Assembly: GCF_021735935.1 (NCBI RefSeq)
Contig: NZ_WMDZ01000001.1
Location: forward strand, 1,860,001 to 1,924,000
From: Sulfitobacter sp. M39
GTDB lineage: Bacteria; Pseudomonadota; Alphaproteobacteria; Rhodobacterales; Rhodobacteraceae
Reading direction: 5' to 3'
Length of the DNA: 64,000 nucleotides
Shown piece by piece: positions 4,758-19,124 of this stretch (position 1 is the first letter of the stretch; each line of letters begins with the position of its first letter). The translations under genes were made by a program, and so were the position numbers. The notes under the pieces are model-generated. The model ran no database searches. It was not told where the DNA came from and saw nothing but the letters and a program-made list of their open reading frames with translations.

Positions 4758-5540
4758 TCAGAAAGTAAATCCAGCGTGGTCGGCCTGCGCGACCAGTTCG
4801 GCGACCCTCTCGGCGTTGTTGGTCGCGACGCTTCCATCTGCGTTCAAGCGGTTGTTCTCGAACCCGATCCGGGTCTTGCCGCCGTGACGCATCGCCTCGA
4901 TCAGGCAGGCGGTTTCTTGTGGTCCGAAGGCGCAGGCGGCCCAGTCCACCTGCGGCAAAGCCGACTTTAGGGTTTGGGCCAGTGCGCCAACGTCTTCAGG
5001 TGTGCTGGTTTGCCCGCTGGTATAACGCCCCAGAACGATCAGGGTCTTGAGCCCGTCGCGGGGGACATCGCCTTGCGCGGCAAGCTGGGCAAGGTGGGTG
5101 ATATCCGCGGTGTCGTAGAGAATGTGTTGAACGTCGATACCCGCTTCGGCGCACATGGCAAAGAACCGTCGGGTGACGGCATTCTCTTGATCGGCCGTGA
5201 TCTCGCGCAGCGCGACCGACACGGCGCGAGGTTTCAGGGTTTCGACAAGATGGCGTTGTTCTGCGGGGGTGAAAGTCCCTGCGGCCTCGCTTGTGATCTG
5301 AACGTAGAGATCAGGTGCCCGATGCCCCAGTTCGGTCAGGAGCTCAGCATAAAGCCCGACGTCCAGAACATGCTGTTGCTGGGTATCGCGCACGTGGGCA
5401 TGCAGGCCATCCGCACCGGCAGCATGGCAGGCCACCGCGCAGGCGACCGTCTCTTCTATGGTGACGGGGAGGGCGGGGTGGTCCGCCTTGGTCAGCCGCG
5501 CCCCATTCGGCGCGACCATAAATCTGGGCAATGCGGTCAT
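4758..5540 (-). CDS. BKACE family beta-keto acid cleavage enzyme (DUF849)
   Basis: 260-residue TIM-barrel protein of the beta-keto acid cleavage family, which condenses a beta-keto acid with acetyl-CoA to give acetoacetate and a new acyl-CoA. The zinc ligands are visible as HAH at residues 47-49 (GADGLHAHVRD), and a conserved Glu lies in RIGFENNR near residue 225. Its start overlaps the stop of the upstream aminotransferase by ATGA, indicating a translationally coupled operon. A transaminase plus a BKACE fits catabolism of a beta-keto acid derived from an amine or amino acid. The actual substrate cannot be told. Confidence 0.87.
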   Translation of the reverse strand: MTALPRFMVAPNGARLTKADHPALPVTIEETVACAVACHAAGADGLHAHVRDTQQQHVLDVGLYAELLTELGHRAPDLYVQITSEAAGTFTPAEQRHLVETLKPRAVSVALREITADQENAVTRRFFAMCAEAGIDVQHILYDTADITHLAQLAAQGDVPRDGLKTLIVLGRYTSGQTSTPEDVGALAQTLKSALPQVDWAACAFGPQETACLIEAMRHGGKTRIGFENNRLNADGSVATNNAERVAELVAQADHAGFTF

Positions 5541-6866
5541 GGGACAAGCGCCTTGTCGATGGCCGTTGATAGTTTGCCCACCAGTTCATCGATCTGTGCG
5601 TCCTCGATGATAAACGGCGGCGCGAGCAGCACGTGGTCGCCATGTTGGCCATCGATTGTGCCGGACATTGGATAGCAGATCAGACCGGCGGCAAAGGCCT
5701 CCTTCTTGATCCGCGCGGCAAGGCCACGGGACGGATCGAATGGTGCTTTGGTGCTGCGGTCGGCAACCAGTTCGATCCCGCGGAACAACCCGCGCCCGCG
5801 TATATCGCCAATGTTGTCATGATCGCCGAACCGCGCCTTTAGTGCTGCGTCGAGCTTGTCGCCTTGGGTGGTGACATGGGCCAGCAGATCGCGGTCCAGA
5901 ATTTCGTTGAGCACGGCATTGGCCGCAGTGGCCGCCATTGCGTGGCCCATATAGGTGTGGCCGTGCTGGAAGAAACCGGTGCCCGCTGCAATTGCATCAT
6001 AGATGGTGCCCGAGGTCAGCAGCGCGCCGATCGGTTGATAGCCCGCGCCAAGTCCTTTGGCGATGGTGATCATATCCGGGGCGACGCCATCCTCGGTGCA
6101 GGCGAACAGTTTGCCGGTACGGCCCATGCCACACATCACCTCGTCCAGGATCAACAGCACGCCATATTGGTCGCAAATCTCGCGGATGCGCTTGAGATAC
6201 CCGGGCACGGCAGGTACCGCGCCAGAGGTGGCACCCACTACAGGCTCAGCAAGGAAGGCCATCACCGTATCAGGGCCAAGGCGCAGGATTTCGGTTTCCA
6301 GCTCATTCGCCACGCGCAAGCCGTAGGCTTCTTGCGTTTCGCCGTCCTGCCGGTCGCGGTACTCATAGCAGGGGCTGATATGGGTGGTGTCGGCAAGCAG
6401 GGGCGCGAATTGGGTGCGACGCCACGCATTTCCCCCCTGCTGCCAAAGCGCCTAATGTATTTCCGTGATAGCTTTGACGGCGCGCAATGACGCGGTGGCG
6501 CTTGGGTTGCCCGATTTCCAGAAAATACTGCCGCGCGAGCTTGATCGATGCCTCGACCGCTTCGGAGCCCCCAGAGACGAGATATACCCGATCAATGCCC
6601 GCAGGCGCGTTTTCGACCAAGCGATCGGCCAAACGCTCTGCCGGGTCGGACGTGAAAAAGCCGGTATGTGCGAAGGCAAGCTGGTCAATCTGGGCGTGCA
6701 GGGCGGTGCGGACAGCCGGGTTTGAGTGCCCCAGACAAGAAACAGCAGCACCGCCCGAACCATCAAGATATCTGCGTCCGTCCGCATCGATCAGATAGCA
6801 GCCGTCCCCCTTGGTGGCGACCGGCAGCGCGCCTTTGGTGGATCGGCCGAAGATATGACTTTTCAT
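5537..6866 (-). pseudogene. Class III aminotransferase, interrupted by a 1-base frameshift
   Basis: Two adjacent reading frames form one PLP-dependent class III (omega) aminotransferase. Residues 1-~148 run from 6866 to about 6438. The rest continues in another frame and includes DEVMCGMGRTGK and the PLP-lysine region TIAKGLGAGYQPIGA. The break is at a run of six C (6432-6437, six G on the coding strand). With five, the frame reads on through AGGNAWRRTQFAPLL, as expected for the family, giving ~442 residues. The full span is 1330 bp, 3n+1. It is either a real inactivating indel, a phase-variable homopolymer or a sequencing error. It is coupled to the BKACE gene downstream and divergent from an RpiR regulator. 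Confidence 0.85.
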
Positions 6867-7040
6867 GACTGTAGTCCTTGGTTGAATAGGCGCTTTGGGT
6901 GACGTGACATCAGCACTTGTCTGCGCGATGATGCGTTTGTATTATTTCACCAGCATATATTAGGCAAATGTATTTTTCCTGTGCATCGGGTGCAACAGCG
7001 ACGTGAACGTTGGCACACATGAACGAAGGGTAAGGCTTTG

Positions 7041-7895
7041 ATGGGCAACGATGAAACACTGAAGGAACGCTTGTCACACGTAAGTGTGGAAGGAACGCCC
7101 GCGCTGCGGACGTTTGCCCGTTGGCTTCTCGATAATCCGTCGCTGGTCGCTTTTAACTCGATTCGAGGGCTGGCAAAGCAGGCAGGGGTCAATCCGAATA
7201 CCGTCACCCGGATGGCGAAGGCGCTTGGCTACGCCAGCTTTGACGCTTTCCGGACGGATGTGCAGGAAACGCTTCAAACGCTTGCGCCGAACTACGGCGC
7301 GCGCGCGCAGACGCTACGACGTGAACACCGCGACAGCGCTTTTACCGCGCTGATGGAGGCGCACCGCGAAAACACGGCGACGCTTTTCTCGGCAGATATT
7401 TTGGACACGCTTAATGCGTGCATCGACCCGTTGCTCAGCGCGCGTAACGTCTATGTGGTCGGCGTGCGCAGCTGCTATGCGATCGCGCATTATTTCTCGT
7501 ATGTGGGCGGCATGGCCTTTGCAAATTTCGCAGATACGCCAACGCTGCCGGGGGGTATTGTTGATGTCATGTCTCAGGCCGCATCCGAAGATATTGTGGT
7601 CGGGATCACCTATGAACACTACTCAGCCGAGGTGGTTCGGGCCTGCGAAATCGCCCAATCCCGCGGCGCGCGGGTCTTAGCCCTTACCGACAGTCATGCC
7701 TCGCCAATCGCGGTTGGGGCGTGGAAAGTCGTGTGTCTGCCCATGGCCGGGCCTCATTTTCTGCCGTCGCTGAATTCGACGTTTTCCGCCGTGGAAATGC
7801 TGCTGGTCGGAATGGCGGCGCGATCGGATCATGCTGCACAGCGGGTCGCGGATTTCGAAGGCCGTATCCGACAGTTTGGCGGCTATTCTTCCTAA
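7041..7895 (+). CDS. MurR/RpiR family transcriptional regulator
   Basis: 284 residues. An N-terminal RpiR-type helix-turn-helix (NSIRGLAKQAGVNPNTVTRMAKALGYASFDAFR, about 36-75) is followed by a SIS phosphosugar-binding fold (~105-255), including VYVVGVRSCYAIAHYFSY and IVVGITYEHYSAEVVRACEIAQSRGARVLALTDS. SIS regulators usually sense phosphorylated sugars or related metabolites. Divergence from the aminotransferase-BKACE operon suggests it controls that operon. ATG at 7041 is favoured by AAGG at 7032-7035; a TTG at 7038 would add one residue. Confidence 0.88.
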   Translation: MGNDETLKERLSHVSVEGTPALRTFARWLLDNPSLVAFNSIRGLAKQAGVNPNTVTRMAKALGYASFDAFRTDVQETLQTLAPNYGARAQTLRREHRDSAFTALMEAHRENTATLFSADILDTLNACIDPLLSARNVYVVGVRSCYAIAHYFSYVGGMAFANFADTPTLPGGIVDVMSQAASEDIVVGITYEHYSAEVVRACEIAQSRGARVLALTDSHASPIAVGAWKVVCLPMAGPHFLPSLNSTFSAVEMLLVGMAARSDHAAQRVADFEGRIRQFGGYSS

Positions 7896-8078
7896 CGGGG
7901 TTTAGGCTTCTTCTACGGCGCGGGACCGTCAAAACCCGGATTGTCGCGTCGAAAAAAAGGGCGGCTAAGTATTCGGGAACGTTTTCTATTCAGAAGGCTA
8001 ATTCAGGGCGGTCACCAAGCTGAGCCCGCCAGAATTGCCCGCCAAGGCAAGGCCCTAGTCTGTTAATGATTAGGCATT

Positions 8079-8111
8079 AAAAAAGCCCTCAAGTCATAGA
8101 CCTGAGGGCTT
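8079..8111 (-). terminator. Displaced tRNA-Asn terminator
   Basis: On the minus strand the stem AAGCCCTCA/TGAGGGCTT is followed by a run of six T. It lies directly after the truncated tRNA-Asn 3' remnant, so it is most simply the original host terminator of tRNA-Asn, moved away from the functional gene when the element integrated. Confidence 0.75.
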
Positions 8112-8112
8112 A

Positions 8113-8164
8113 TTATGGCTCCGACGGTAGGGATCGAACCTACGACCAATTGATTAACAGTCAA
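8113..8164 (-). repeat. Left attachment repeat (truncated tRNA-Asn 3' part)
   Basis: 52 bp identical to 19047-19098. It covers the tRNA-Asn 3' part from the anticodon loop to the encoded CCA (8116-8164) plus 3 bases. No 5' half follows it, since the sequence diverges at 8165, so it is not a functional tRNA. It marks the left end of the integrated element. Confidence 0.92.
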
Positions 8165-8293
8165 AATATTGACCGTATCACTACCTAACGAACCATATCC
8201 TTGATAATATAAATATTCCATATTTTGCTTGATGTTATATGATTTTTTTGTATCTATATCTAACATGATCTAACGACCACTATTGGTTCAAAA

Positions 8294-8313
8294 TGTTACC
8301 CCAGTGTTACCCC
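8294..8313. repeat. Left TGTTACCCC pair (candidate integrase arm sites)
   Basis: TGTTACCCC occurs at 8294-8302 and again at 8305-8313, an 11-bp period, between the left attachment repeat and the integrase gene. The same 9-mer pair recurs near the right end (18962-18982). Paired repeats flanking the core on both sides fit arm-type binding sites for the integrase N-terminal domain. Confidence 0.55.
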
Positions 8314-8329
8314 AAAGGACCAATTGACT

Positions 8330-9583
8330 ATGGCAAAGGCACTCACGACCAAAGCTGTCGACGCGATGAAACCCAACCTGGTACGGAGACTTGAAGTGCC
8401 TGACCCGGCGCTGTCTGGGCTGTATCTGGTAATCCAGCCGAGTGGTGCAAAGTCATGGGCCCTTCGGTATCGCTGGGCGGGAAAACCTGCAAAGCTCACG
8501 CTTGGGCGTTGGCCCGTTCTTGGCGTCGCTGATGCGCGTGCAGTTGCGTCCGATGCAATTGACAAAATTGAACGTGGCCAAAATCCTGCGGCTGAGAAAA
8601 AGGCGACCAAGGCTGCACGGCTGGAAGCTCAGCTATCTGAACGCGATAAGGTGAAGACGCTGATTGAGCAATTCGACCGGCGCCATTTGTCTGGCCTGAA
8701 AAGCGGTCATACGGTCAAACGCGAATTGGATAGGCACGTTGTATCGGAGTGGGGCGGGCGCGACATCCATGATATTGCCAAGCGTGACGTCATTGACCTG
8801 CTGGACAGCATAGTCGATTCTGGGCGGATTGTGACAGCTAATAGAGTGCGGTCCTATCTGAATAAGTTTCTCAATTGGTGTGTGGAACGGGACATAATTG
8901 CGTTCAGTCCAGCAACCGGGATCAAGCCGGTAGCGAAAGAGGTCAGCCGGGACCGCGTTTTGTCTGATGATGAGGTTCGATGGTTCTGGATGGCCTGTCA
9001 GGCGATCAAGCAACCTTGGGGACCGTTGGGAGAGCTGTTGTTGTTGACCGGCCAGAGATTGAATGAAGTCGCCTGCATGACTGATAAAGAGGTCACAGGC
9101 ACCAATTGGCATTTATCGGCGGTCCGCACAAAGAATGGGCGGGCGCATGACATACCTTTGTCAGATGCCGCAATAAGTGTTCTTTGCCGTATAGATATTA
9201 TCGAAGGCGATAAGGGGTATTACCACACCACGACTGGCGGAACGCCATTAAGTGGATTCCACAAAGGCCGTCAGCACCTTGCTGACCAAATGGTTGCGAT
9301 TGCTAGCGAAGAGCGCGGCTTGGAAGTGACTATCCCACATTGGACATTCCACGACCTGCGAAGGACCGCCGCAACGGGTATGGCCCGCCTCGGGATACCT
9401 GTGCGTGTGACAGAGGCGGTTCTCAACCATGTCAGTGGAACGGGTGGCGGCATCGTGGCAGTGTATCAACGGCACGACTATGCAGACGAAAAGAGGAGAG
9501 CGTTGGAAGCATGGGCCGGACTCGTTGCGCAGATAGTATCCGGCAATTCCGACAACGTAGTGCGTATTGGGGAGGCTAAGTAG
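8330..9583 (+). CDS. int: Tyrosine-type site-specific integrase (P4 family)
   Basis: 417 residues. The DUF4102 arm-binding N-terminal domain runs over ~1-90, the SAM-like core-binding domain over ~100-190, and the catalytic domain follows. Catalytic residues seen are Arg in LLTGQRLNEVACM, HxLRR at ~341-345 (HDLRRTAATG), His in VLNHVSG and Tyr near 379 (VYQRHDY). It should recombine the element's attachment site with tRNA-Asn. It lies next to the truncated left repeat, not beside the restored tRNA, which is less usual. ATG 8330 follows AAAGGA at 8314; a TTG at 8324 is an alternative. Confidence 0.95.
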   Translation: MAKALTTKAVDAMKPNLVRRLEVPDPALSGLYLVIQPSGAKSWALRYRWAGKPAKLTLGRWPVLGVADARAVASDAIDKIERGQNPAAEKKATKAARLEAQLSERDKVKTLIEQFDRRHLSGLKSGHTVKRELDRHVVSEWGGRDIHDIAKRDVIDLLDSIVDSGRIVTANRVRSYLNKFLNWCVERDIIAFSPATGIKPVAKEVSRDRVLSDDEVRWFWMACQAIKQPWGPLGELLLLTGQRLNEVACMTDKEVTGTNWHLSAVRTKNGRAHDIPLSDAAISVLCRIDIIEGDKGYYHTTTGGTPLSGFHKGRQHLADQMVAIASEERGLEVTIPHWTFHDLRRTAATGMARLGIPVRVTEAVLNHVSGTGGGIVAVYQRHDYADEKRRALEAWAGLVAQIVSGNSDNVVRIGEAK

Positions 9584-9585
9584 TG

Positions 9586-10320
9586 ATGAATTCGAAAGGG
9601 CAGGGAATTACACACCACGAATTTCTGTTTGCCGTCGGTGGGGAGATCGTGATCGAGGCCGACTTGTGGGAGTTTATGCAGTTGAAACCTGAGGACCGAC
9701 CAAATTGGCCCGATGTGCATATTCTCGCATACCTGGATATACTCTTTCGCATTGACCAACACGCAATAGCCGGAACGCTTGACGAGTTTCGAAATGCCCT
9801 GCGCATACGAGGAGAGTTCGTGCTTACGGACGAAGAAACGCAGCGAAAAATGCGGATTGAAGGCCCTTGGATCCGCGAATGGGTAAACCTCTACCGGGTA
9901 TTAAATGGACCAGACAACGTGACGAAAAGAAAAGTGTCAGGCGTTGCCGAGCGGTTCCTTGGATTAGAGAAGCCGCACCAAAGTGGGACCATATCAATGA
10001 CTGCCTTTGGTAAACATCCACGAACAGAAATGGAATTATTGGAGACGCTTCCACGTCATAAGAAGCCGCGCGGCGGTGGCAATAAGCTGGCAGTTCCATG
10101 GGGTTCTGAAACCTGGATACAGCCAATGAACCAAATGAGATTACTTGTTCTCCGAGATGAGCTTTCCAGAAATACCGCAGCCAAGCAGGTTGCCGGGATT
10201 TCAGAAAAGGCAAGACATTCAGACTATTACAATGATATCCTGCAGCGGTTTAGAGAGAAGATGCGCATCCGAAAATGGGGGGTGAAAGCAATCGAAGATA
10301 TCCTTTCCCGCTCCTCGTAA
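9586..10320 (+). CDS. Hypothetical protein of the satellite
   Basis: I do not recognise this 244-residue protein. It has no signal peptide or membrane segment. The N-terminal part is acidic (EIVIEADLWEFMQLKPEDRPNWPD); the C-terminal ~80 residues are basic and look helical (MRLLVLRDELSRNTAAKQ...DILQRFREKMRIRKW), perhaps DNA-binding. It begins 2 bases after the integrase stop with GGGGAGG upstream, so it is co-transcribed with int. In this position satellites often carry regulators or helper-interference genes. A GTG at 9583 is an alternative start. Confidence 0.75.
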   Translation: MNSKGQGITHHEFLFAVGGEIVIEADLWEFMQLKPEDRPNWPDVHILAYLDILFRIDQHAIAGTLDEFRNALRIRGEFVLTDEETQRKMRIEGPWIREWVNLYRVLNGPDNVTKRKVSGVAERFLGLEKPHQSGTISMTAFGKHPRTEMELLETLPRHKKPRGGGNKLAVPWGSETWIQPMNQMRLLVLRDELSRNTAAKQVAGISEKARHSDYYNDILQRFREKMRIRKWGVKAIEDILSRSS

Positions 10321-10370
10321 TCCCCTTATTTTGTCAGTGATTGCCTACGTTTTTTATAGCGAGGCTTATC

Positions 10371-10559
10371 ATGGACAAGAAACTCATATCCGCTGCGACC
10401 GTGCGCGAACTGTGTGGCGGCATATCTGACATGAGCCTGTGGCGTTGGCTCCATGACACAGACCTCAATTTCCCCAAACCTATATATATTTCCCGCCGTC
10501 GTTACTGGCGGCAGGCTGATGTCTTGGCGTGGGTAGAGACGCAAGTTGAGGCGGCCTGA
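10371..10559 (+). CDS. AlpA-like excisionase/activator
   Basis: 62-residue MerR-like winged helix-turn-helix protein of the AlpA family: MSLWRWLHDTDLNFPKPIYISRRRYWRQADVLAWVET, the typical D-x-x-W/FPKPI/R...W core. AlpA proteins act as excisionase or as transcriptional switch of P4-like elements and Gram-negative PICIs. The stop overlaps the start of the next gene as TGATG, so the two are translationally coupled. Confidence 0.85.
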   Translation: MDKKLISAATVRELCGGISDMSLWRWLHDTDLNFPKPIYISRRRYWRQADVLAWVETQVEAA

Positions 10560-11188
10560 TGAGTGACTTGCCGTTTGCTAAGGTAAAGCTGCAGCATCTG
10601 CGCGACTTGGCGTCCGACCGTGAAGTGTCCGACCGTGCATTTCGCCTTGCGGCATATCTTGCACTCAATCACGCAGATCATGTGACAGGCGAGTCTCGCC
10701 CTTCTGATGCATTCGTGGCGAAGGCGATGGGGGTTTCGGAAAAAACGGTCAGCCGAGCCGCTCGTGACCTTTTGGGGTCCGGGCACTACACGGTCGAGCG
10801 AGGTGTGAACCGCGGCAGAGCCACAAGGTATTTGCCGACTGAGGCGACACTTAACCGGGCAGTGGAAGTCAAAAAAAAGGCTGACAAGGTTGTCAGCCTT
10901 TCGACGGTAAAAGCCCGACAGGACTGTCCAGAAAGCACGACAGATGTGTCCGAGAAAGCCCGACAGGTTTGGGGGGCGAACAGAGAAAAGGAACTTAGAA
11001 AAGAACACGCGCGAGCTAGGGCTTTGCCAAATGATGGGCAAGCCGACGCAGCCGCTTATTGGGCATCGCAAGTGAAGGCCGGTGCCTTCATTCCACAGAC
11101 TGCGATTAGCCCATCGCTAGCTCGTGAGATATTGAGCCGTGGCCTTTTAGAAGCCGACGAACTCAGAGCTGTCGGGGTGGCGGCATGA
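10559..11188 (+). CDS. Helix-turn-helix protein, possible replication initiator
   Basis: 209 residues. The N-terminal ~90 form an HTH_36-like winged helix (SDRAFRLAAYLALNHADHVTGESRPSDAFVAKAMGVSEKTVSRAARDLL), the fold seen in plasmid/phage replication initiators and regulators. A Lys/Ala-rich linker and a C-terminal region (AAAYWASQVKAGAFIPQTAISPSLAREIL) follow. It is coupled to the alpA-like gene upstream. No primase or helicase motif is visible anywhere in the element, so this is the best candidate for a replication-control protein. The role is inferred. Confidence 0.75.
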   Translation: MSDLPFAKVKLQHLRDLASDREVSDRAFRLAAYLALNHADHVTGESRPSDAFVAKAMGVSEKTVSRAARDLLGSGHYTVERGVNRGRATRYLPTEATLNRAVEVKKKADKVVSLSTVKARQDCPESTTDVSEKARQVWGANREKELRKEHARARALPNDGQADAAAYWASQVKAGAFIPQTAISPSLAREILSRGLLEADELRAVGVAA

Positions 11189-11268
11189 CGTTTGATCTGG
11201 TCCCAATGGCGGCTTTTGCATCCGGGCAGGGGGCCGGGGGTCTGGGTTATGCGTTCGCGCTGTGCGGA

Positions 11269-11550
11269 TTAGTTGGCTTCACTAGAGGTTCTGTCGCGCA
11301 TTGCCTCAATACCGAATGGTTGACGGCTAAGCCATTCGGCTCTCGCATCGGCCTGACGGCGCAAAAGCATATCCGTACGGCTAACTTTCTCAAAACACTG
11401 CAAACGTTCGATATCGCTTTCTATTTCGCGGCATTCGCAAAGGGAAGCTGCAAGGCGATCTGTTTCCATCCAACGGCATTGGTCACTCTGAGCGAACGCC
11501 GGAACACCGAAAAGCACGGATACGAACACACCGCCTATTTTATTCAGCAT
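11269..11550 (-). CDS. Small secreted protein encoded against the satellite operon
   Basis: 93 residues with a clear N-terminal signal peptide (MLNKIGGVFVSVLFGVPAFA, cleavage expected after AFA-QS) and a short domain with CECREIESDIERLQCFEKV, the C-x(n)-RL-x-C-F pattern common in small periplasmic proteins. An excellent ribosome site, AGGAGGT, lies 4 bases before the ATG on the minus strand. It is the only minus-strand gene within the rightward operon. A periplasmic protein here could serve superinfection exclusion or envelope modification; function is unknown. An overlapping plus-strand frame (11185-11589) looks like its shadow. Confidence 0.6.
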   Translation of the reverse strand: MLNKIGGVFVSVLFGVPAFAQSDQCRWMETDRLAASLCECREIESDIERLQCFEKVSRTDMLLRRQADARAEWLSRQPFGIEAMRDRTSSEAN

Positions 11551-11585
11551 CAATACCTCCTGTGTTGCAACAACTGGAGGCTGGC

Positions 11586-13100
11586 ATGAAAGCATCCACC
11601 AAAGCAATCCGGTTCCTTGAAACGCTGGCAATCCCCGAGGGGCCAAAGGCAGGCGAACTGGTCAAGCTTGCCCCATTCCAAAAGCGATTTGTTAAAGGCG
11701 CGTTGGCTGGCGATGTTAACGTGGCGGTTTTGTCCATCGGGCGCGGGAACGCTAAGACGGCGCTGTCGGCTGGCATCGCTCTGGGATCGTGCATGGGCAA
11801 GTGGGATGGTCAGCCTCGGCGCGAAATCTTGATTGCCGCAAGAACGCGGGACCAAGCCCGCATCGCTTTTGACTTTGTGGTCGGGTTCATGCGGTCTTTA
11901 CCTGAAGACGAACAAAAGCTGTTCACAGTCCGGCGTTCCCCGCGTCTTGAAATCGAATATGAGGGTGGCGGCGGCGGGCATTTCATCCGGGCGATTGCGG
12001 CTGATGGCAAGTCTGCGCTTGGCTCTGCCCCTACGTTGATCTTGATGGATGAACGGGGCCATTGGGCGGCTGATCAAGGTGACGCTCTGGAACATGCGCT
12101 GTTGTCCGGTATGGGCAAGCGTGGCGGGCGGGCGTTAATCATTTCAACCTCTGCACCTGATGATGCCCACCCCTTTTCAATCTGGCTCGACGAGGACGCA
12201 CCGGGCATCTATCGGCAAGAACATCGACCGTCACCGGGCTTGCCTGCGGATGATCTGGAAAGCCTCAAAGAAGCAAACCCCGGCGCTGTTGCTGGCATTG
12301 GTTCTTCTTTGGACTGGTTGCAAGGTCAGGCACGGCGGGCAATTGAGCGGGGCGGCTCAACGCTGACCACGTTCCGGCTCTATAACCGGAATGAGCGTGT
12401 AAGCGGCGAAACCCGGGATGTGCTGTTGACCGTAGATGAGTGGCTTGCCTGTGAAGTATCTGAGGTTCCGGCACGGCAAGGGCAATGCGTGATCGGTATC
12501 GACCTTGGCGGCTCTGCGTCTATGACGGCGGCGTCTTTTTACTGGCCGGAAACGGGCCGTCTTGAAAGCCTTGGCACCTTCCCAAGAAAACCGAACCTTG
12601 CTGACCGTGGCGCAAATGATGGCGTTCAAGGGCGCTATGTTGAAATGCAGGATCGGGGCGAGTTGTCCACAATTGGCGATCAAACCGTGCCGATTGCACC
12701 TTGGCTGATCGAGGTGATGAAACATATCGAGGGCGAACCCGTCGCAGCGCTAGTCGCGGATCGGTACAAGCAATCCGAACTTGGAGAAGCGATTGACCGG
12801 GCGGGCATCCGTTCGCCTGTGATCTGGCGCGGCTTTGGGTTCAAAGACGGGAACGAGGATTGCGAGCGGTTCCGGCGGGCGGCGTTTGACGGCAAGGTGC
12901 TGACAAACCCGTCCTTGTTGCTGCGTTCTGCGTTCGCTGATGCGGTTACTCTGCGCGATCCATCCAACAATCTGAAACTGGCAAAGGCGCGTTCTACGGG
13001 CCGGATTGATGCGGCGTCTGCCACGGTTATCGCCGTTGCTGAGGGCGCTCGGATCATGGGCCGGCCAATACAGAAAGGAGGGCGCATCGCATGGGGATGA
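11586..13100 (+). CDS. terL: Terminase large subunit
   Basis: 504 residues. ATPase domain: Walker-A-like GRGNAKT at ~52-58, and an acidic DEXX-type segment LILMDERGHWAADQG. Nuclease domain: VIGIDLGGSASMTAASF, with later acidic residues (AALVADRYKQSE). It is the motor that packages DNA into the HK97-type capsid encoded downstream. No small-terminase gene is recognised next to it, which is unusual. ATG 11586 has GGAGG 4 bases upstream. Its stop overlaps the HNH start. Confidence 0.92.
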   Translation: MKASTKAIRFLETLAIPEGPKAGELVKLAPFQKRFVKGALAGDVNVAVLSIGRGNAKTALSAGIALGSCMGKWDGQPRREILIAARTRDQARIAFDFVVGFMRSLPEDEQKLFTVRRSPRLEIEYEGGGGGHFIRAIAADGKSALGSAPTLILMDERGHWAADQGDALEHALLSGMGKRGGRALIISTSAPDDAHPFSIWLDEDAPGIYRQEHRPSPGLPADDLESLKEANPGAVAGIGSSLDWLQGQARRAIERGGSTLTTFRLYNRNERVSGETRDVLLTVDEWLACEVSEVPARQGQCVIGIDLGGSASMTAASFYWPETGRLESLGTFPRKPNLADRGANDGVQGRYVEMQDRGELSTIGDQTVPIAPWLIEVMKHIEGEPVAALVADRYKQSELGEAIDRAGIRSPVIWRGFGFKDGNEDCERFRRAAFDGKVLTNPSLLLRSAFADAVTLRDPSNNLKLAKARSTGRIDAASATVIAVAEGARIMGRPIQKGGRIAWG

Positions 13101-13432
13101 GGCAAGATTACAAACGCCACTCAGGTAAGGTTACACGCGGCCCCCGCTGGAAGGCCCTGCGGATGCAGGCGCTGGACCGTGACGGCTGGCAATGTGTCCA
13201 ATGTGGCGAACGGCGGCGGTTGGAATGTGACCACATTCTACCCGTCCGAACGCACCCCGAACTTTCCTATTCTCTGAGCAATTTGCAGATGCTTTGCGGC
13301 CCCTGCCATGCCCGGAAAACCCGAATTGAGGTTGGGCACAAGCCTCTGACCCCAAAGCGCCAAGAATGGCGCGACCTGCTGCGAGATTTGCAGCGCAATC
13401 CCGTTGAGCATGAAAGGAAATCAAATGCTTGA
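13091..13432 (+). CDS. HNH endonuclease
   Basis: 113 residues with CVQCGERRRLECDHILP, SNLQMLCGPCHARKT: two CxxC zinc knuckles and the HNH active site. In HK97-type phages an HNH protein next to the terminase is needed for DNA cleavage during packaging, and it is also a regular part of capsid-forming satellites. It overlaps terL by 10 bases; AAGGAGG lies ~8 bases before the ATG. Confidence 0.92.
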   Translation: MGMRQDYKRHSGKVTRGPRWKALRMQALDRDGWQCVQCGERRRLECDHILPVRTHPELSYSLSNLQMLCGPCHARKTRIEVGHKPLTPKRQEWRDLLRDLQRNPVEHERKSNA

Positions 13433-14675
13433 TTCACTAAGAATCACCCGGCGTCAGTCGGAAATCCGTCAACAGCTTGCCGACTTGGTAGGCAAACCCG
13501 AACCGTCTGAGGACGAAACGCGGTCTATGGAAACGCTGGATGCTGAGTATCGCACCAACGAAACGCGGTTCCGTGCGGCTTTGACAGCTGAGGACGATGA
13601 GCGCAAAGAAGCGGGGGCCGAACTGGAAAGCCGCTCTGAGACAGAATGGGGCGAACTTGCGGGCCGTTTTGAATTGCGCCAAGTCGCCCTAGCACTTGAT
13701 GAAGGCCGCAAGCTGGACGGTGCAACCGCTGAAATGGTGGAAGAATTGCGCAGCGCGGGCGGGTTCCAAGGTATCCCTGTTCCCCTTGAGGCGCTGGAAA
13801 CCCGTGCTGGTGAAACGCTTGCGGGCGGTGTTCCTGACCCAATCCGCACAATGCCAACGATTGAGCGCCTGTTCGCGGGTTCCTCTGCAACGGCGATGGG
13901 TTGCCGGATGATCAACGTGGGCGTGGGGGAAATCGAATACCCCGTTGCCACGGGTGGCGCACAACCGGGCTGGGCTGGCTCTGAGACTGGTGACGTGCCG
14001 GGGCCGCAAGCTTACACGACGACCGATGTGCCGATGAAGCCTGATCAGACACTGGGTGTTCAAATGAAGATCACCCGCAAGGCGTTAAAACAGGCGGGTG
14101 CAGGTCTGGAGCAAGCGGTACGGCGCGATATGTCGGCGGCAATCCAGCAAGAGACTGATCGTGCCATTTTCCTCGGCTCTGGTTCCGGTGGTGAGCCTTT
14201 GGGCGTTTTCCCCGGTGCATCCGCCTACGGCATCACAGAAACGGCCATCGATGCGGCGGCGTCCTATGCCGCGTTCCGTGCTGCGGTCGTGCGGTTTATG
14301 ACGGCGAACGCGGCAAGCGGCCCCGGTGCGGTTAACCTACTGTTGCGTCCTGAGGTCTTTGACAGCATGGACGAACTGATTAGCGGTCTGGCAATCTCTG
14401 AGTGGGACCGTTTGGTGGCAAAGATGGGCAAGACCGTCCTGACCACCAACGGCATCTTGGCCCCGGCTGGTGATCCGGCTGAAAGCATGGCGCTCCTGTC
14501 CACATCCACAAACGGGGTGGCTCCGGTGTTCTGCGGCATGTGGGGGGCGGTGGATCTGATCCGCGATCCGTTCAGTGATGCAAAGTCTGGGCAATTGCGC
14601 CTGACGGCACTGACCACAATGGATGTTACGGTTGCGCGTGGTGTGCAACTCGAAATCCTGACTGGTATTCAGTGA
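13425..14675 (+). CDS. Major capsid protein, HK97 fold
   Basis: 416 residues. The N-terminal ~110 are charged and helical (scaffolding/delta domain, removed by the protease), followed by the HK97 shell domain: YPVATGGAQPGWAGSETGDVPG, MKITRKALKQAG, DRAIFLGSGSGGEPLGVF, LLLRPEVFDSM. Several ATGs lie in frame; 13425 is preferred because AAAGGA precedes it at the right distance. It forms the shell of a satellite or phage head. It overlaps the HNH gene by 8 bases and is coupled to the protease by TGATG. Confidence 0.93.
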   Translation: MLDSLRITRRQSEIRQQLADLVGKPEPSEDETRSMETLDAEYRTNETRFRAALTAEDDERKEAGAELESRSETEWGELAGRFELRQVALALDEGRKLDGATAEMVEELRSAGGFQGIPVPLEALETRAGETLAGGVPDPIRTMPTIERLFAGSSATAMGCRMINVGVGEIEYPVATGGAQPGWAGSETGDVPGPQAYTTTDVPMKPDQTLGVQMKITRKALKQAGAGLEQAVRRDMSAAIQQETDRAIFLGSGSGGEPLGVFPGASAYGITETAIDAAASYAAFRAAVVRFMTANAASGPGAVNLLLRPEVFDSMDELISGLAISEWDRLVAKMGKTVLTTNGILAPAGDPAESMALLSTSTNGVAPVFCGMWGAVDLIRDPFSDAKSGQLRLTALTTMDVTVARGVQLEILTGIQ

Positions 14676-15325
14676 TGCTAGAAGGCTTTGCAGGCGGCGG
14701 TCTGGAACTACGCAAAAGGGCATCCGGTGCGTTGGCATTGCAAGGCTCTTTTCCCTACGGCAAACGGGCGGTCCTCAGTGATGGGGGCCGTTCCGGCAGG
14801 CCAAAGAAAGAGGCAATTGCGCCCGGTGCTTTTGCCTATCGGATCAACACCCCGTCTGAGCATGGCGGGGCAAAGGACATTCACCTGTTGTCTGGTCACG
14901 ACTTTGGCAAACCTTTGGCATCGGTTCGGTCTGGCACTTTGGACATTAAAGACAGTCCTGAGGCAGTGACGTTCACGGCAACCATTTCTGAGGAAATGCA
15001 AGAGGTCAGCTATGTTAAAGACGTTCTTGCGGCGGTGTCTGCCGGGTTGGCAATCGGCATATCGCCGGGGTTTCGCCTCCCACCAAAGCGGCGGGTTCCT
15101 AATCCTGAGACGATTGAAGATGAAGGGATGGACCCAGAAAACGGGGCGTTCAATGCGGTCATTCGCACGGTGTTGCAAGCCTTGCTTTACGAAATGTCGA
15201 TTGTGACAAGACCCGCTTATCCAGAAACCCAGATCGAAGCGCGAAATTGGACGCCTGACGGGCTATTGCAATCGGATGGGCTTGGGATTGGCCTGCATCG
15301 CACTTTGAACAGATGGAGGGCCTAA
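14675..15325 (+). CDS. HK97 family prohead protease
   Basis: 216-residue serine protease of the herpesvirus-assemblin/HK97 type. The catalytic His lies in LLSGHDFGKPLAS, the catalytic Ser region is VSAGLAIGISPGF, and the signature end is LYEMSIVTRPAYPET. It would mature the capsid by removing the delta domain. Placing the protease downstream of the capsid gene is the reverse of the usual phage HK97 order (portal, protease, capsid). ATG 14675 overlaps the capsid stop. Confidence 0.9.
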   Translation: MLEGFAGGGLELRKRASGALALQGSFPYGKRAVLSDGGRSGRPKKEAIAPGAFAYRINTPSEHGGAKDIHLLSGHDFGKPLASVRSGTLDIKDSPEAVTFTATISEEMQEVSYVKDVLAAVSAGLAIGISPGFRLPPKRRVPNPETIEDEGMDPENGAFNAVIRTVLQALLYEMSIVTRPAYPETQIEARNWTPDGLLQSDGLGIGLHRTLNRWRA

Positions 15326-15327
15326 AC

Positions 15328-15918
15328 ATGGCAGAAACGATCAAGCAAGTTGAAGCTATTCCGGCTTCATATCCAGATATTGGGCAAAGCGAACTTGGCT
15401 TTGCGCCCACAGATGATTCTTGGCAGCGGATCGAAAGCTATATCGCGCACCGGTTCACTCCGCGAGAAGTGATCTGGACCGTGGAGGGGGAAGGCGACTG
15501 GACGCCACCCTTGAAACCGGTAACGGCTATTTCTGCTGAAAAATGGGAAAACGGCTGGGTCGAGGTCACGTTGCCTGAGGGGCCATATGGATATTGCCTG
15601 CCCGGTGATGGCCCGTATCGGATCACGGCAACCGTGGGGCCTGAGGGTGTCGAAGTGGACGGCGTGACGACTTATGCCGTTCCGACTGTGGTGGCGAAGG
15701 CCGCGCACAGGCTAACGCAATACTGCCTAATTCAAGTTGATAAGGACGACTACGGCAGATTTACTCGATTGCCTGAATTTGCGGCTACGTCTGCCCGATA
15801 TTCGGGCGAGGGTGAAAATGCTGCGGAAACAGAACTAGAACGACCTTCCACATGGATTGCAAAAGCAATGCAAAATAGCGGTGCGGCTGATCTGCTGCGT
15901 CCATATCGGAGGGCTTGA
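15328..15918 (+). CDS. Probable head completion / adaptor protein
   Basis: 196 residues between the protease and portal genes, where HK97-type and satellite modules carry the connector. The N-terminal half (DSWQRIESYIAHRFTPREVIWTVEGEGDW) resembles head-tail connector proteins of the HK97 gp6/phiE125 gp8 type; the family call comes from position plus general resemblance. ATG 15328 follows GGAGGG. It would close the portal vertex and accept a (helper) tail. Confidence 0.65.
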   Translation: MAETIKQVEAIPASYPDIGQSELGFAPTDDSWQRIESYIAHRFTPREVIWTVEGEGDWTPPLKPVTAISAEKWENGWVEVTLPEGPYGYCLPGDGPYRITATVGPEGVEVDGVTTYAVPTVVAKAAHRLTQYCLIQVDKDDYGRFTRLPEFAATSARYSGEGENAAETELERPSTWIAKAMQNSGAADLLRPYRRA

Positions 15919-15919
15919 T

Positions 15920-16987
15920 ATGTGGCCATTCAAACGGAAAGAACCTGAGAACGAAACGCGGTCCACTGGCAACGGATACACAACGCAGGTGATGCAAGCG
16001 CGGACGGATTACATCGGCGGCGTTGATGGCGTTGCCGAACTCACTGGCACGGTGCAAGGCTGTGTGAGCCTCTGGGAAGGCGGTCTGAGCCTATCCGATG
16101 TGGAAGGCACCGACATGCTGACCCCGATGATGCTGGCGTTGGCTGGTCGCGCTCTGGCGTTGCGCGGGGAATGTGTGTTCGTGATCCGCGAGGACGGGTT
16201 GTTGCCGTGTTCGGATTGGGATTTGACCACACGTTATTCCAAGCCCACGGCCTACCGTGTTGGCGTCTCTGACACGGGCGGCGGCAAGTCTATGACGGTG
16301 CTGGCGGGCGAGGTGCTGCACCTGCGCGTTGGTGCTGATGTGGGTATGCCGTATGTCGGACAATCCCCGTTGCGGCGGGCGCGGCTTACGGCGAGTCTGT
16401 TGCAAACGCTGGAATTGGCCCTGTCCGAGGTCTACGCAAACGCGCCACTGGGTTCGTCTGTCATTCCGTTCCCTGAGGCACCTGACCAAGATATGAGCGA
16501 TCTGGCGCGCGGGTTCCGTGGGTTTCGCGGCAAGGTGCTAATACGTGAGTCCGTCAACGTTACGGCGGCGGGTGGTCCTGCGCCTCAGACTGATTTGAAG
16601 CCGTCCGATGTGTCGCCTGACCTATCCAAAGCTATGACAAAGGAAACGCTGGTGTCGGCACGGTCCAGCATTGAAATGGTCTATGGGGTTCTACCCGCTC
16701 TAAGCAATATCAGCACAACGGGGCCAATGGTCAGAGAGGCGCAACGCCACCTTGCCCAATGGGGTCTTATGCCTATCGCAGCGATGATCGGGCAAGAGGC
16801 GTCCGAAAAGCTGGGAAATACGGTAAAGCTGGATGTAATGCGACCATTGCAGGCGTTTGATGCCGGTGGCCGCGCGAGGGCGCTTACGGCGGTTGTGGCA
16901 GCAATGGCAGCGGCCAAGGAAACAGACATTGATCCGGCAATGGCCCTCAAACTGGTGGATTGGAAGCATGAGGCCGAAAATGAATGA
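15920..16987 (+). CDS. Phage portal protein (HK97 type)
   Basis: 355 residues, slightly short for the family. Recognisable segments are MWPFKRKE at the start, YVGQSPLRRARLTASLLQTLE in the middle, and LPALSNISTTGPMVREAQRHLAQWGLMPIAAMIGQEASEKL near the end, the stem/crown region of portal proteins. It forms the dodecameric vertex through which DNA is packaged. It begins 2 bases after the previous stop, with GGAGGG upstream, and is the last gene of the rightward operon. Confidence 0.85.
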   Translation: MWPFKRKEPENETRSTGNGYTTQVMQARTDYIGGVDGVAELTGTVQGCVSLWEGGLSLSDVEGTDMLTPMMLALAGRALALRGECVFVIREDGLLPCSDWDLTTRYSKPTAYRVGVSDTGGGKSMTVLAGEVLHLRVGADVGMPYVGQSPLRRARLTASLLQTLELALSEVYANAPLGSSVIPFPEAPDQDMSDLARGFRGFRGKVLIRESVNVTAAGGPAPQTDLKPSDVSPDLSKAMTKETLVSARSSIEMVYGVLPALSNISTTGPMVREAQRHLAQWGLMPIAAMIGQEASEKLGNTVKLDVMRPLQAFDAGGRARALTAVVAAMAAAKETDIDPAMALKLVDWKHEAENE

Positions 16988-17000
16988 GAAGACTTGGAGC

Positions 17001-17026
17001 CAGCACCCTTCTAAGAATAGGTGCTG
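17001..17026. terminator. Hairpin between the convergent capsid and cargo operons
   Basis: Inverted repeat CAGCACC (17001-17007) / GGTGCTG (17020-17026) in the 61-bp gap between the portal stop and the end of the PIN gene. The T-tract is poor on both strands, so it is a weak bidirectional terminator candidate. Confidence 0.4.
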
Positions 17027-17048
17027 ATTAAATTCAGCAGGCAGAAGC

Positions 17049-17603
17049 TCAACTCGCAGCAGTTTTCATCTTAAGTACCTTCATATTTCCCGTGACAAAC
17101 CTAATACTAGTCTTGGCAAAATCACCATCATGAGAGACAAGTACAAATTTGCCAGAAGCGCATTCGCTTACTAGCGCGGCGTCGGTCAAATCGAGTTCTC
17201 CATCGACTACCAAACTTAGATTAGTTTCCAGGCAATCTTGCTGCAGGTTTGATTGCTGATATGTGCAGTCACTTAATATCTCTAAACAAATATCCTTTAC
17301 AGTCGAAACCCTCGACTTGAAGTTGTTGTCAGTTTTTCGGAGTCGTTTATAGTCTCTCCATCTTGCTCGTCCAAATAGTGACTCAAATTCCATTTTGCAA
17401 AATCTATTAAAAAACTCGGAAATCACCTGCTCATTTACTATCACAGTATTCCCAGCCTCGAGAACGCTAGCATAAAAGTCACTATAGACCTGCTTTTCAG
17501 GCCTTGGATCATTTCCGTAGATAGCAAGCCAAACGTTTGTGTCGAACAACACGAACTCGTTTTCGAATTTGCAATCGGCATGTGCACTGATGATCTCACT
17601 CAT
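17049..17603 (-). CDS. PIN-domain nuclease of the satellite cargo cassette
   Basis: 184 residues with the four acidic PIN positions visible: FVLFDTNVW (first Asp), EQVISEFFNRF (Glu), ELDLTDAALVSEC (Asp), VSHDGDF (final Asp). PIN domains are metal-dependent ribonucleases, common as VapC toxins and as effectors in defence systems. This one is larger than a typical VapC (~130 aa). ATG 17603 overlaps the upstream STAS-like gene stop by 8 bases, so the two are coupled. Two upstream in-frame ATGs (17621, 17627) are alternatives. It is the third gene of the cassette and the probable effector; the function is inferred. Confidence 0.8.
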   Translation of the reverse strand: MSEIISAHADCKFENEFVLFDTNVWLAIYGNDPRPEKQVYSDFYASVLEAGNTVIVNEQVISEFFNRFCKMEFESLFGRARWRDYKRLRKTDNNFKSRVSTVKDICLEILSDCTYQQSNLQQDCLETNLSLVVDGELDLTDAALVSECASGKFVLVSHDGDFAKTSIRFVTGNMKVLKMKTAAS

Positions 17604-17955
17604 CGGCGTCGCCTTTCCCATCGTCAAACAGTTCTTCTACAGCGTTTGCGTCCGCGAAAAAAACCTTAGCTCTTTCCACTACCATCTTAAGTCGATCTAA
17701 GTGCCAATCTTGATAGTCAACTGGAGCCGCTAGGTGCTTTCTTATAGTATCTTCAGGTAGTTCACCATACAATTGTCCCACGGCTGCATTGAGAAACGCT
17801 GTCGTCATCCTCGTGACGCCAAAGAAAGAAAGCTCTGCACGGTTTCCGCTTGTAATTATCTTATGGATTTCGTTGTGTACCTTCTTCCCGTCTGACGCCG
17901 CGACACAGATACCTCCTCCAACTATCGACGATACTGATATCCTAATTGTTTTCAT
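17596..17955 (-). CDS. DUF4325-type STAS-like protein
   Basis: 119 residues: MKTIRISVSSIVGGGICVAASDGKKVHNEIHKII, then ELSFFGVTRMTTAFLNAAVGQLYGELPED, which fits the STAS-like DUF4325 family (the strand followed by a Ser/Thr-rich loop and helix is where STAS proteins are phosphorylated). STAS proteins usually relay signals through a partner GHKL kinase, here the gene just upstream, 4 bases away. ATG 17973 would add six residues and overlap the ATPase stop. Middle gene of the three-gene cassette. Confidence 0.7.
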   Translation of the reverse strand: MKTIRISVSSIVGGGICVAASDGKKVHNEIHKIITSGNRAELSFFGVTRMTTAFLNAAVGQLYGELPEDTIRKHLAAPVDYQDWHLDRLKMVVERAKVFFADANAVEELFDDGKGDADE

Positions 17956-17959
17956 GTGA

Positions 17960-18835
17960 TCACCAAATTTCATGCGGATTGACTGCGGATTTCATGTGAT
18001 AGGATTTAGAATCTGAAGTGTCGATCTCCAAGGAAACCACCGTTCCCGGATATTGATATGCGATGCGTTGTTTTTTCAATGTTCCGTTTCTGTACTCCCA
18101 ATAGCCGCCATGCGAGCATACAAGCAGGCAACCACCATTCAAACCGATGAATTCCTTAAGAATACCTAAACCCAGTCCCCCTGGAATATCCCCAACACGC
18201 GCACTGTTGTTCATTTCCATGGCCCAATCTATTGCATCTTCTGGCGCAGCGAAGTTCTTCCCTGCAGCTGATAGTGACCCATGAATGCCTCTACCCCCAT
18301 CAGAAATCACAAACGCCAACCTATCCAAACGTGGAAAGTACTGCCCGCCGGCAAAAACGGAGATCGGAGAATTGGCCCAGAGGGAGCTATTCGCAAACAG
18401 TTCATCGATTCCTTCAAAAAACTTCTTTACAAGGCCGTCACTCATTTTAGGCATCTCTCGCCGCATCAATCGAGCTTTGCTGAACTGAGAGAACTCTACG
18501 GCGCTGTTCGTGTCAAAACCTGTGATAGGTATTGTCGTTCCATGGACGTCGGCCGCTCCGCCGGAAAGAGTCTTATTTTTCTTCAGGATAGTTTGTATCC
18601 GAGGTGTTATATTGTAAAAAAGAATTTCATTTCCGGCTTTGCGAGCGTGATTCACAATAGTTAGCAAACATGCCCCTAGCTGAGCATCGATCCAAGTTAA
18701 TCGCTTGCAATCTATTCCGAGGCTGGCGTTCTGCTGTTTTGATAGGTTGCTATGAAGTCTCGATAGAGCTTCAAACCCAAGAGAGTTGGCACGGATTTCA
18801 TATGCCTCAAGGTCAATCATTAAGTTGTCGCTCAA
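17960..18835 (-). CDS. STAS-GHKL ATPase of the satellite cargo cassette
   Basis: 291 residues, soluble. The N-terminal ~100 look like a STAS fold (SLGIDCKRLTWIDAQLGACLLTIVNHARKAGNEILFYN). The C-terminal half is a GHKL ATPase: helix with IDELFANSSLW in the N-box place, G1 box FVISDGGRGIHGSL, G2 box IPGGLGLGILKEFI. There is no dimerisation/phospho-His domain and no membrane segment, so this is not an ordinary sensor histidine kinase. It is closer to SpoIIAB/RsbW-like protein kinases fused to a STAS module. It heads the minus-strand cassette next to the right attachment site, in AT-richer sequence than its neighbours. Confidence 0.75.
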   Translation of the reverse strand: MSDNLMIDLEAYEIRANSLGFEALSRLHSNLSKQQNASLGIDCKRLTWIDAQLGACLLTIVNHARKAGNEILFYNITPRIQTILKKNKTLSGGAADVHGTTIPITGFDTNSAVEFSQFSKARLMRREMPKMSDGLVKKFFEGIDELFANSSLWANSPISVFAGGQYFPRLDRLAFVISDGGRGIHGSLSAAGKNFAAPEDAIDWAMEMNNSARVGDIPGGLGLGILKEFIGLNGGCLLVCSHGGYWEYRNGTLKKQRIAYQYPGTVVSLEIDTSDSKSYHMKSAVNPHEIW

Positions 18836-18883
18836 ATTGACCTCACCATTCTGAACTAAGCTGCAGAATATGCACTCGACAGG

Positions 18884-18912
18884 TATCTAAGCATTTTACT
18901 TGCAACTGTCAC
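18884..18912 (-). promoter_or_regulatory. Candidate promoter of the cargo cassette
   Basis: Minus strand: GTGACA (18907-18912), 17-bp spacer, TAGATA (18884-18889), about 50 bp before the ATPase start. Five of six match at -35, three of six at -10. It is the best sigma70-like pair seen in this AT-rich leader. Confidence 0.35.
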
Positions 18913-18961
18913 TTACCTTGCGAAGTGAGATGCTAAATTTGCAGGATGCCGTCCCTTGTCT

Positions 18962-18982
18962 TGTTACCCCAACTGTTACCCC
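18962..18982. repeat. Right TGTTACCCC pair (candidate integrase arm sites)
   Basis: TGTTACCCC at 18962-18970 and 18974-18982 (12-bp period), mirroring the pair at 8294-8313. Both pairs are followed by CAAA or AAAA. They sit just inside the right attachment repeat. Confidence 0.55.
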
Positions 18983-19011
18983 AAAAGATTTACGGCAAAA
19001 GAGTAAAAATC

Positions 19012-19048
19012 AAAAAAGCCACCAAGTCACTGAACTTGGTGGCTTTTT
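19012..19048 (-). terminator. Element-supplied tRNA-Asn terminator
   Basis: On the minus strand, two bases after the tRNA CCA, a 10-bp stem GCCACCAAGT/ACTTGGTGGC is followed by six T. It differs in sequence from the displaced terminator at 8079-8111, so the satellite brought its own terminator along with the new tRNA 3' end. Confidence 0.8.
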
Positions 19049-19098
19049 ATGGCTCCGACGGTAGGGATCGAACCTACGACCAATTGATTAACAGTCAA
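19047..19098 (-). repeat. Right attachment repeat
   Basis: Perfect copy of 8113-8164; overlaps the 3' 49 bases of the functional tRNA-Asn. The identity stops after the anticodon-loop side, so recombination occurred somewhere within these 52 bp. Confidence 0.92.
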
Positions 19099-19124
19099 CT
19101 GCTCTACCGCTGAGCTACGTCGGA
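19050..19124 (-). tRNA. tRNA-Asn(GTT)
   Basis: 75-nt cloverleaf with acceptor TCCGACG/CGTCGGA, discriminator G, and encoded CCA. Anticodon GTT is at 19090-19092, and the T-arm is GTAGGTTCGATCCCTAC. It is the integration target of the satellite, whose attachment sequence rebuilds its 3' part. Confidence 0.96.

Follow-up and report, generated by a model that had tools for sequence, protein, structure and literature searches.

A tailless HK97-type element in Sulfitobacter sp. M39 and a probable alphaproteobacterial lineage of capsid-forming satellites

A stretch of 64,000 nucleotides from the genome of Sulfitobacter sp. M39 (Rhodobacteraceae; contig NZ_WMDZ01000001.1, positions 1,860,001 to 1,924,000; hereafter the window) contains a 10.9-kb element that is inserted at a tRNA-Asn gene and encodes HK97-type head and packaging proteins. 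Our analysis indicates that this element very probably belongs to a lineage of capsid-forming satellites that evolved separately and occurs mainly in Alphaproteobacteria; its members would package their own DNA into small heads, perhaps T=3, and borrow tails. In the following paragraphs, we describe the element and its relatives, weigh other explanations for them, and compare the family with known satellites.

The first-pass annotation of the window had placed the element between 52-bp direct repeats at tRNA-Asn, and an exact repeat search confirmed these bounds with a spacing of 10,934 bp (Table 1). A 26-bp piece of the repeat, allowing up to three mismatches, occurs at two places in the window, which are the two repeat copies (none expected in shuffled sequences), and the right copy forms the 3' part of the tRNA-Asn(GTT) gene. 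The GC content is 53.7% in the element versus 60.0% in the remaining window. With its own integrase and att repeats, the element shows the site-specific integration that characterizes capsid-forming phage-inducible chromosomal islands (cf-PICIs). A close relative of the host, G020, carries the same tRNA-Asn without a satellite; it is clearer evidence than an empty-site search over 62 genomes of the genus, in which the left flank resembles the sequence beside the tRNA and is hard to read. Separately, window positions 543-8112 (7.6 kb, including an aminotransferase open reading frame (ORF) and an RpiR-SIS regulator) are missing from G020, where about 250 bp separate the tRNA-Asn from a match to window positions 1-542; this interval may be a second island or may have been deleted in G020.

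Profile matches bore out the integrase, large terminase subunit (TerL), HNH endonuclease, major capsid protein (MCP), protease and portal that had been named from the sequence alone, and they likewise revealed no tail or lysis family in the element. The AlpA-like and winged-helix proteins of the first-pass annotation stand less firmly, since their matches are weak. Its adaptor found no family match by profile, but the predicted structure matches neck adaptors of gene transfer agents (GTAs) and phages. The MCP, protease, portal and head-tail connector are the own head genes expected of a cf-PICI, and candidates for the AlpA-type regulator and the primase or replication gene of such islands are the weak AlpA-like and initiator-like matches here and primases or initiators in some relatives. 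A 355-aa protein (P0006) is identical to the portal of the element, for which a sequence search of solved structures gave no match.

Starting from 151 loci (duplicates included), we identified 55 distinct elements bounded by direct repeats, which are 9.05-12.1 kb long with a median of 10.46 kb; repeats of at least 25 nt alone define 37 elements of 9.05-12.1 kb with a median of 10.6 kb. MCP and protease are present in all 55, and TerL, HNH, portal and integrase in 54 each, while adaptor and AlpA homologues occur in 39 and 15, respectively. The gene order TerL-HNH-MCP-protease-(adaptor)-portal is near constant, with the integrase at either end. Integrases, replication genes and tRNA sites vary among the elements, and the head set and the narrow size are kept. 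The first-pass annotation had singled out tRNA-Asn for tailless copies in other genomes; such copies exist (9/55), but the site is not special to the family, which occupies 18 tRNA isoacceptors (eight elements lie at no recognised tRNA). The list is restricted to spacings of 9.0-12.5 kb (8-16 kb in the long-repeat search), and the sole repeat of at least 25 nt lost within the spacing limits is that of L072. Eleven loci were dropped as duplicates of another locus, and candidates left out by hand are L046 and L062 (14-15-nt repeats, 8.1-8.5 kb), L065 (14 nt, 10.0 kb) and L072 (the repeat is the terminal overlap of the contig). For seven of the 55 elements, the bounds are repeats of 14-16 nt that lie within a tRNA gene or next to one. 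In a control with 239 mixed-locus pairs, 17 share at least 14 nt and ten of these at least 25 nt, which probably reflects shared att sites rather than chance. Two further observations concern individual loci. L064, a Methylocystaceae relative with a 9.05-kb bounded element, has an MCP at 55% identity and lacks homologues of the family TerL, HNH, portal and integrase. Inside L004 (15301-15388), L082 and L197, tRNA-like genes of 87-88 nt were found, two called Leu-tag and one Phe-gaa.

To cover the other genes of the family, 492 other ORFs in the 55 elements were reduced to 184 representatives (clusters of at least two members with at least 55 aa, or any ORF of at least 100 aa). Their complete Pfam lists (25 and 22 families) comprise initiators, primases, helix-turn-helix (HTH) proteins, connectors (Phage_HCP, Phage_connect_1), transposase, portal and others, and include no tail tube, tape measure, sheath, fibre or lysis family. 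PHROG matches to "tail completion or Neck1" and "head closure" families were obtained among these ORFs, with one or two members each, and we read the former as connectors. HK97 and GTA tail proteins and the HK97 endolysin had no tblastn match in 151 and 109 loci (duplicates included). By profile and tblastn searches, the element and its relatives lack the tail module beside the head module that marks a tailed prophage. Tail genes of its own, as expected of a GTA, are equally absent from the element: the one match to GTA_TIM in the host genome (1754077-1754970) lies outside it.

Sequence comparisons separate the family from known phages. Searches of 50,697 phage records yielded 408 matches for TerL and 29 for MCP, all below 60% identity; among the matches listed, TerL identity is at most 27.6% across almost the full length and 29.3% across half of it, and MCP identity at most 29.1%, while the adaptor had no match at E 0.01. 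TerL identity among family relatives is 51-94%. For comparison with cf-PICIs, we used the island of Escherichia coli O157:H7 EDL933 (NZ_CP008957.1, 1680329-1694760), which we take to be EcCIEDL933. Its MCP has no detectable similarity to that of the window element and its TerL is 20% identical, which does not indicate common descent. Among 31 TerL sequences placed in a tree, those of 20 satellites lie on one side of a branch with support of 97/97 and a long stem (100/100 in the comparison with the cf-PICI rows alone), and the EDL933 TerL and two relatives group with phi105 and Marinobacter phage AS1. A single clade of satellites and cf-PICIs was rejected (p-AU 0.00017), with long branches present; the program warns that such branches meet, which leaves finer placement unsure. 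Judged from these sequences, the TerL lineage is separate from that of the E. coli cf-PICI. In the same records, LR881103, OR544138 and OR544139 (10.7-16.5 kb), labelled as phages, have TerL 68-81% like that of the EDL933 island and look like cf-PICIs filed as phages.

A conserved non-coding site lies upstream of TerL. It consists of TGGTCCCAATGCCCC, followed by about 50 nt that are mostly G-rich and end in TTTC-C-CTCCC. The exact core GGTCCCAATG occurs within the 700 bp that precede TerL in 91 of 119 loci, once in each (110 of 119 allowing one mismatch), and elsewhere twice in the remaining 3.34 Mb on both strands; both outlying copies (L090 and L099) also precede TerL, by about 706 and 780 bp. 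Among 56 held-out loci, 38 contain the exact core, 12 a version with one mismatch and six neither, with no copy in 1.04 Mb elsewhere. When each distinct TerL stretch is represented by a single locus, the first motif set gives 89 exact and 19 one-mismatch cores in 117 loci. These counts exclude 17 names in the first set (11 of them duplicates), 19 loci in the second, and loci with less than 150 bp upstream. The distance from the core to the TerL match ranges from 67 to 780 bp, and other genes can intervene. In the window, the core at 11199 falls inside an ORF (11185-11589), which is probably not a gene because it overlaps the conserved site. We had considered this ORF as a candidate small terminase (TerS) and rejected it: the DNA site is conserved instead, at varying distances from TerL, and none of the other loci among the 151 contains a relative of the stretch that follows the site (11266-11560). 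G-runs are also found at the HK97 genome end and in the gap before TerS in the EDL933 island, while the core motif is absent from HK97, the EDL933 stretch, the GTA region and a partial prophage of the host. An inverted repeat GGGACC 24-42 nt downstream of the site (16 of 41 versus 8.0 expected) is weak and not claimed. Given its position, its conservation and the TerL-HNH pair, the site is likely a cos (packaging) site.

Terminal overlaps in two of 189 viral loci suggest that the satellite may exist in a circular or head-to-tail form: L309 has exact 127-bp ends and a unit of 10,231 bp, and L072 has 121-bp ends with one mismatch and a unit of 10,640 bp. L071 was rejected as a circular genome, as its ends are merely 86% alike and probably belong to two diverged copies. 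More generally, the ends of viral contigs L071 and L308 are 86-92% alike, as if two diverged satellites lay in tandem. According to a published model, T=3 heads of tailed phages, with a predicted size of about 43 nm, hold 11.78 kbp on average (95% range 8.1-17.1), and P4, at 11.6 kb, uses T=4 (PMC7762592). By analogy, the satellite head is perhaps about T=3, and T=4 is possible too, as for P4. In the life cycle that we propose, infection or induction by a tailed phage would trigger excision of the satellite, which would replicate as a circle or concatemer. TerL and HNH would then cut its DNA at the conserved site upstream of TerL, the DNA would be packaged into a small head, perhaps T=3, and a helper tail would join this head through the adaptor. 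Satellite particles would leave in the helper's lysis and integrate in the next cell.

Three other explanations have to be weighed against a capsid-forming satellite. If the element were a decayed prophage, tail and lysis genes would have been lost once, or several times independently; its head and packaging genes are all phage-type and the host genome does contain a partial prophage. This origin is very unlikely, and we reject it on account of the conservation across 55 bounded elements, which differ in integrases, replication genes and tRNA sites but share the head set and a narrow size; the two family elements in one genome and the lack of a TerL at 60% identity or more among the 50,697 phage records also argue against it. 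Close homologues that always sit in full prophages with tails, the outcome that the first-pass annotation considered fatal to its proposal, were not what we found, as the 55 repeat-bounded relatives carry no recognised tail gene. It is quite unlikely that the element truly belongs to the cf-PICI lineage that EcCIEDL933 represents. The two have functional parts in common, share the order MCP-protease-portal, and possess integrases, proteases and TerL proteins that are detectably related by profile. TerL and HNH, however, precede the head genes here and follow them in EcCIEDL933, the MCP and TerL comparisons and the rejected single clade point elsewhere, no TerS is recognised, and AlpA homologues are confined to 15 of 55 elements. 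The kinship with cf-PICIs that had been proposed from the sequence thus holds for the functional parts, but not for gene order or TerL ancestry: because these two differ from the E. coli island, we conclude that the element would work like a cf-PICI but is outside that lineage. A small virus or transfer particle that is autonomous and does without the tail of a helper would account for the head set and TerL and for the fact that no helper was found. We regard it as extremely unlikely, as 39 of 55 elements retain a head-tail adaptor, the remaining ORFs include other connector families, and no entry or lysis genes were recognised.

Several points weigh against the satellite lineage that we favour. 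The element is known here from sequence, from which we infer the helper, the induction and the particles. The four host portals of the PF04860 type belong to the two satellites, the GTA and the partial prophage, leaving no complete helper of that portal type (others were not searched). No TerS was recognised in the window or, by Pfam, among the 184 other ORF representatives, with TerL and HNH present. Three "tail completion or Neck1 protein" PHROG families match one ORF set (at most two members each), the PHROG tallies cover 25 of 68 and 25 of 84 families, and tail proteins unlike any profile would escape detection. The Foldseek match of the adaptor is weak (best E 0.009), and two of 54 integrases have no full-length frame. 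As the loci are mostly at most 20 kb long and the repeat span was limited, much larger elements could not be bounded, and nine loci of at least 15 kb gave no repeat. Finally, circular-looking contigs could also arise from tandem copies or assembly.

The adaptor raises the question of whether a GTA could supply the tails. The Rhodobacter capsulatus GTA has tail genes. GTAs package host DNA (PMC12946183). The host GTA is an apparently complete cluster at a locus of its own (about 1742826-1756677), apart from the satellite. The best fold match of the predicted adaptor structure is the GTA neck adaptor, and a GTA marker is present in 14 of 20 satellite-bearing genomes tested (one of the 14 is a fragment at a contig end). 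On these grounds, Rhodobacterales satellites might fit their heads with host GTA tails, so that a domesticated, cell-encoded particle would be the standing helper of a selfish element; we consider this unlikely. GTA tails cannot be the sole route, because six of the 20 genomes, including that of the betaproteobacterium Pusillimonas, have no GTA marker and because the two adaptors, which gave no match by profile, are linked by fold comparison only.

A TerL search of the host genome returned three matching places. Besides the window element, a second family member (G000:C1:1094419-1104485) is bounded by a 49-bp repeat at tRNA-Phe with a spacing of 10,018 bp. Its proteins are 81% (TerL), 73% (HNH), 64% (MCP), 60% (protease), 39% (adaptor) and 64% (portal) identical to those of the window element, whose remaining genes have no match in it at E 1e-3. 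The third match (28%) is the partial prophage, with a tape-measure-like gene that was recognised by eye. This locus (G000:C1:1659372-1669654) encodes a portal, connector-like proteins, TerL, a 793-aa tape-measure-like protein and a 520-aa protein that matches both protease and MCP profiles, and no full tail set was seen in it.

Capsid and TerL genes form a mosaic across the family. Using different query genes on 224 loci measured for both proteins (duplicates included), we found 21 loci with TerL at least 90% like that of the window and MCPs at 61-67%, and 28 loci with MCP at least 80% like that of the window and TerLs at 56-63%. One locus (L317) has both genes at 75% or more, and none has both at 80% or more, where an unswapped lineage would show both high. 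From these sequences, we conclude that the capsid gene is swapped between satellite lineages.

The lineage that the first-pass annotation had placed in Alphaproteobacteria is indeed found mainly there: 29 of 30 loci in named genomes belong to Alphaproteobacteria, the exception being a locus of the betaproteobacterium Pusillimonas noertemannii. TerL at E 1e-60 is present in 39 of 394 family, two of 385 class and five of 398 phylum genomes, the own genome included; these sets overlap, and the 394 sampled family genomes are nearly all from different genera. Within the genus, MCP matches at E 1e-3 or better were obtained in 14 of 62 genomes, the own included, nine of them with copies of at least 55% identity. 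Most other satellites in the genus have MCPs 55-65% identical to that of the window (one at 86%), and the MCPs of an Erythrobacter metagenome-assembled genome and an Algimonas genome are 75-76% identical. Because the latter are closer than most same-genus MCPs, the comparison points to transfer between orders. Viral-contig scans returned 82 TerL, 314 adaptor and 561 MCP relatives, and among the best 80 of each set no contig exceeds 25.9 kb. A portal search gave at least 2,468 protein clusters at E 1e-10 or better (among 7,997 scored candidates); the best 120 of these are at least 71% identical, and not all 2,468 need be satellites.

Three genes on the minus strand near the right end of the element, which the first-pass annotation does not list, appear to be cargo. 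The 291-aa protein has a distant DrmA match, and we take its N-terminal part to be STAS-like and its C-terminal part GHKL ATPase-like, judging from its motifs and with no profile match for these. Together with the PIN and DUF4325 proteins, it forms a possible unrecognised defence trio; that this cargo protects the host or the helper is a guess. On the 184 ORF representatives from the relatives, PADLOC gave single-member matches only, the strongest being PDC-S64 (5e-39).

Table 1. Features of the satellite element and its integration site (window coordinates).
Feature	Position	Strand	Basis
attL, 52-bp direct repeat	8113..8164		exact repeat search
Tyrosine integrase	8330..9583 (ORF from TTG 8324; likely ATG 8330)	+	PF13356, PF00589, phrog_1 1e-60
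orf245, 245-aa unknown protein	9583..10320	+	cluster in 4/55 elements
AlpA-like small HTH protein, weak	10341..10559	+	phrog_66 4.6e-5; HTH_17 under cut-off; homologue in 15/55 elements
HTH protein, weakly like phage replication initiators	10559..11188	+	phrog_270 0.0011, HTH_36 0.0015; cluster in 9/55
Conserved non-coding site TGGTCCCAATGGC...G-rich...TTATGCGTTCGCGC, candidate cos/packaging site	11198..11267 (core 11199-11208)	+	motif conservation
Possible 93-aa exported protein between candidate cos and TerL	11269..11550	-	translation; signal-peptide-like N terminus by eye
TerL	11586..13100 (ORF opens 11562; likely ATG 11586)	+	phrog_9 4e-61; both Pfam TerL domains; PDB 6z6d 3e-35
HNH endonuclease	13091..13432	+	PF01844, phrog_144
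HK97-type MCP	13425..14675 (ORF opens 13404; likely ATG 13425)	+	PF05065 5e-15, TIGR01554 2e-16
S78 prohead protease	14672..15325	+	PF04586 8e-14
Head-tail adaptor, 201 aa	15328..15918 (ORF opens 15313)	+	predicted-structure match
Portal protein	15920..16987 (ORF opens 15857; likely ATG 15920)	+	PF04860 1e-9, just under Pfam cut-off; phrog_12
Cargo, PIN-domain protein	17049..17627	-	PF01850 2e-6
Cargo, DUF4325 STAS-like protein	17596..17973	-	PF14213 7e-12
Cargo, 291-aa protein	17960..18835	-	phrog_3364 9e-30 (unknown function); PADLOC DrmA 2.5e-10
attR, 52-bp direct repeat within tRNA-Asn	19047..19098		exact repeat search
tRNA-Asn(GTT), integration site	19050..19124	-	tRNA gene call

Like EcCIEDL933, the element combines an integrase, a small HTH regulator, its own MCP, protease, portal, connectors, HNH and TerL with an absence of tail genes. 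Unlike EcCIEDL933, it has TerL-HNH ahead of the head genes, another TerL and capsid lineage, mainly alphaproteobacterial hosts of its family, and neither a recognised TerS nor a large DUF927-type replication gene. The main cf-PICI paper is said to conclude that cf-PICIs arose at least three times independently. That paper lay outside our literature search, which found no published account of this satellite family, so overlap with its lineages is possible. According to the papers cited here, cf-PICIs rely on the helper for tails only (PMC10690885) and average 14 kb in size, versus 10.9 kb for the window element (PMC10803314); cf-PICIs and the Streptomyces satellites together demonstrate that a satellite may encode its own head and take its tail from elsewhere (PMC10690885, PMC10803314, PMC11389934). 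The element resembles MulchRoom and MiniFlayer, satellites of Streptomyces phages, in having its own capsid and packaging genes and, presumably here, small heads, and MulchRoom also encodes an integrase and apparently carries the tail of a helper (PMC10690885). The likeness is by description, and those two satellites differ in direct terminal repeats of about 1 kb, isolation as particles and virulent helpers (PMC10690885). With HK97-like siphophages, the element shares the head fold family and TerL identity of 26.4% (to HK-type phages), but HK97 has full tail and lysis modules, a genome of 39.7 kb and a TerL outside the satellite group.

Taken together, as far as the literature was searched, what is new here is a lineage, mainly of Alphaproteobacteria, that is set apart by the ancestry of its TerL and capsid and by its gene order, size and packaging-site candidate. 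If this reading is true, head-building satellites would not be mainly a trait of enteric bacteria and Firmicutes, as a separate lineage would be common in marine Alphaproteobacteria and widespread in metagenomes. Its heads would be among the smallest of the HK97 type, and it would offer a defined packaging-site candidate. The capsid swaps and apparent jumps between orders would then show satellites moving genes, including possible defence cargo, between hosts.

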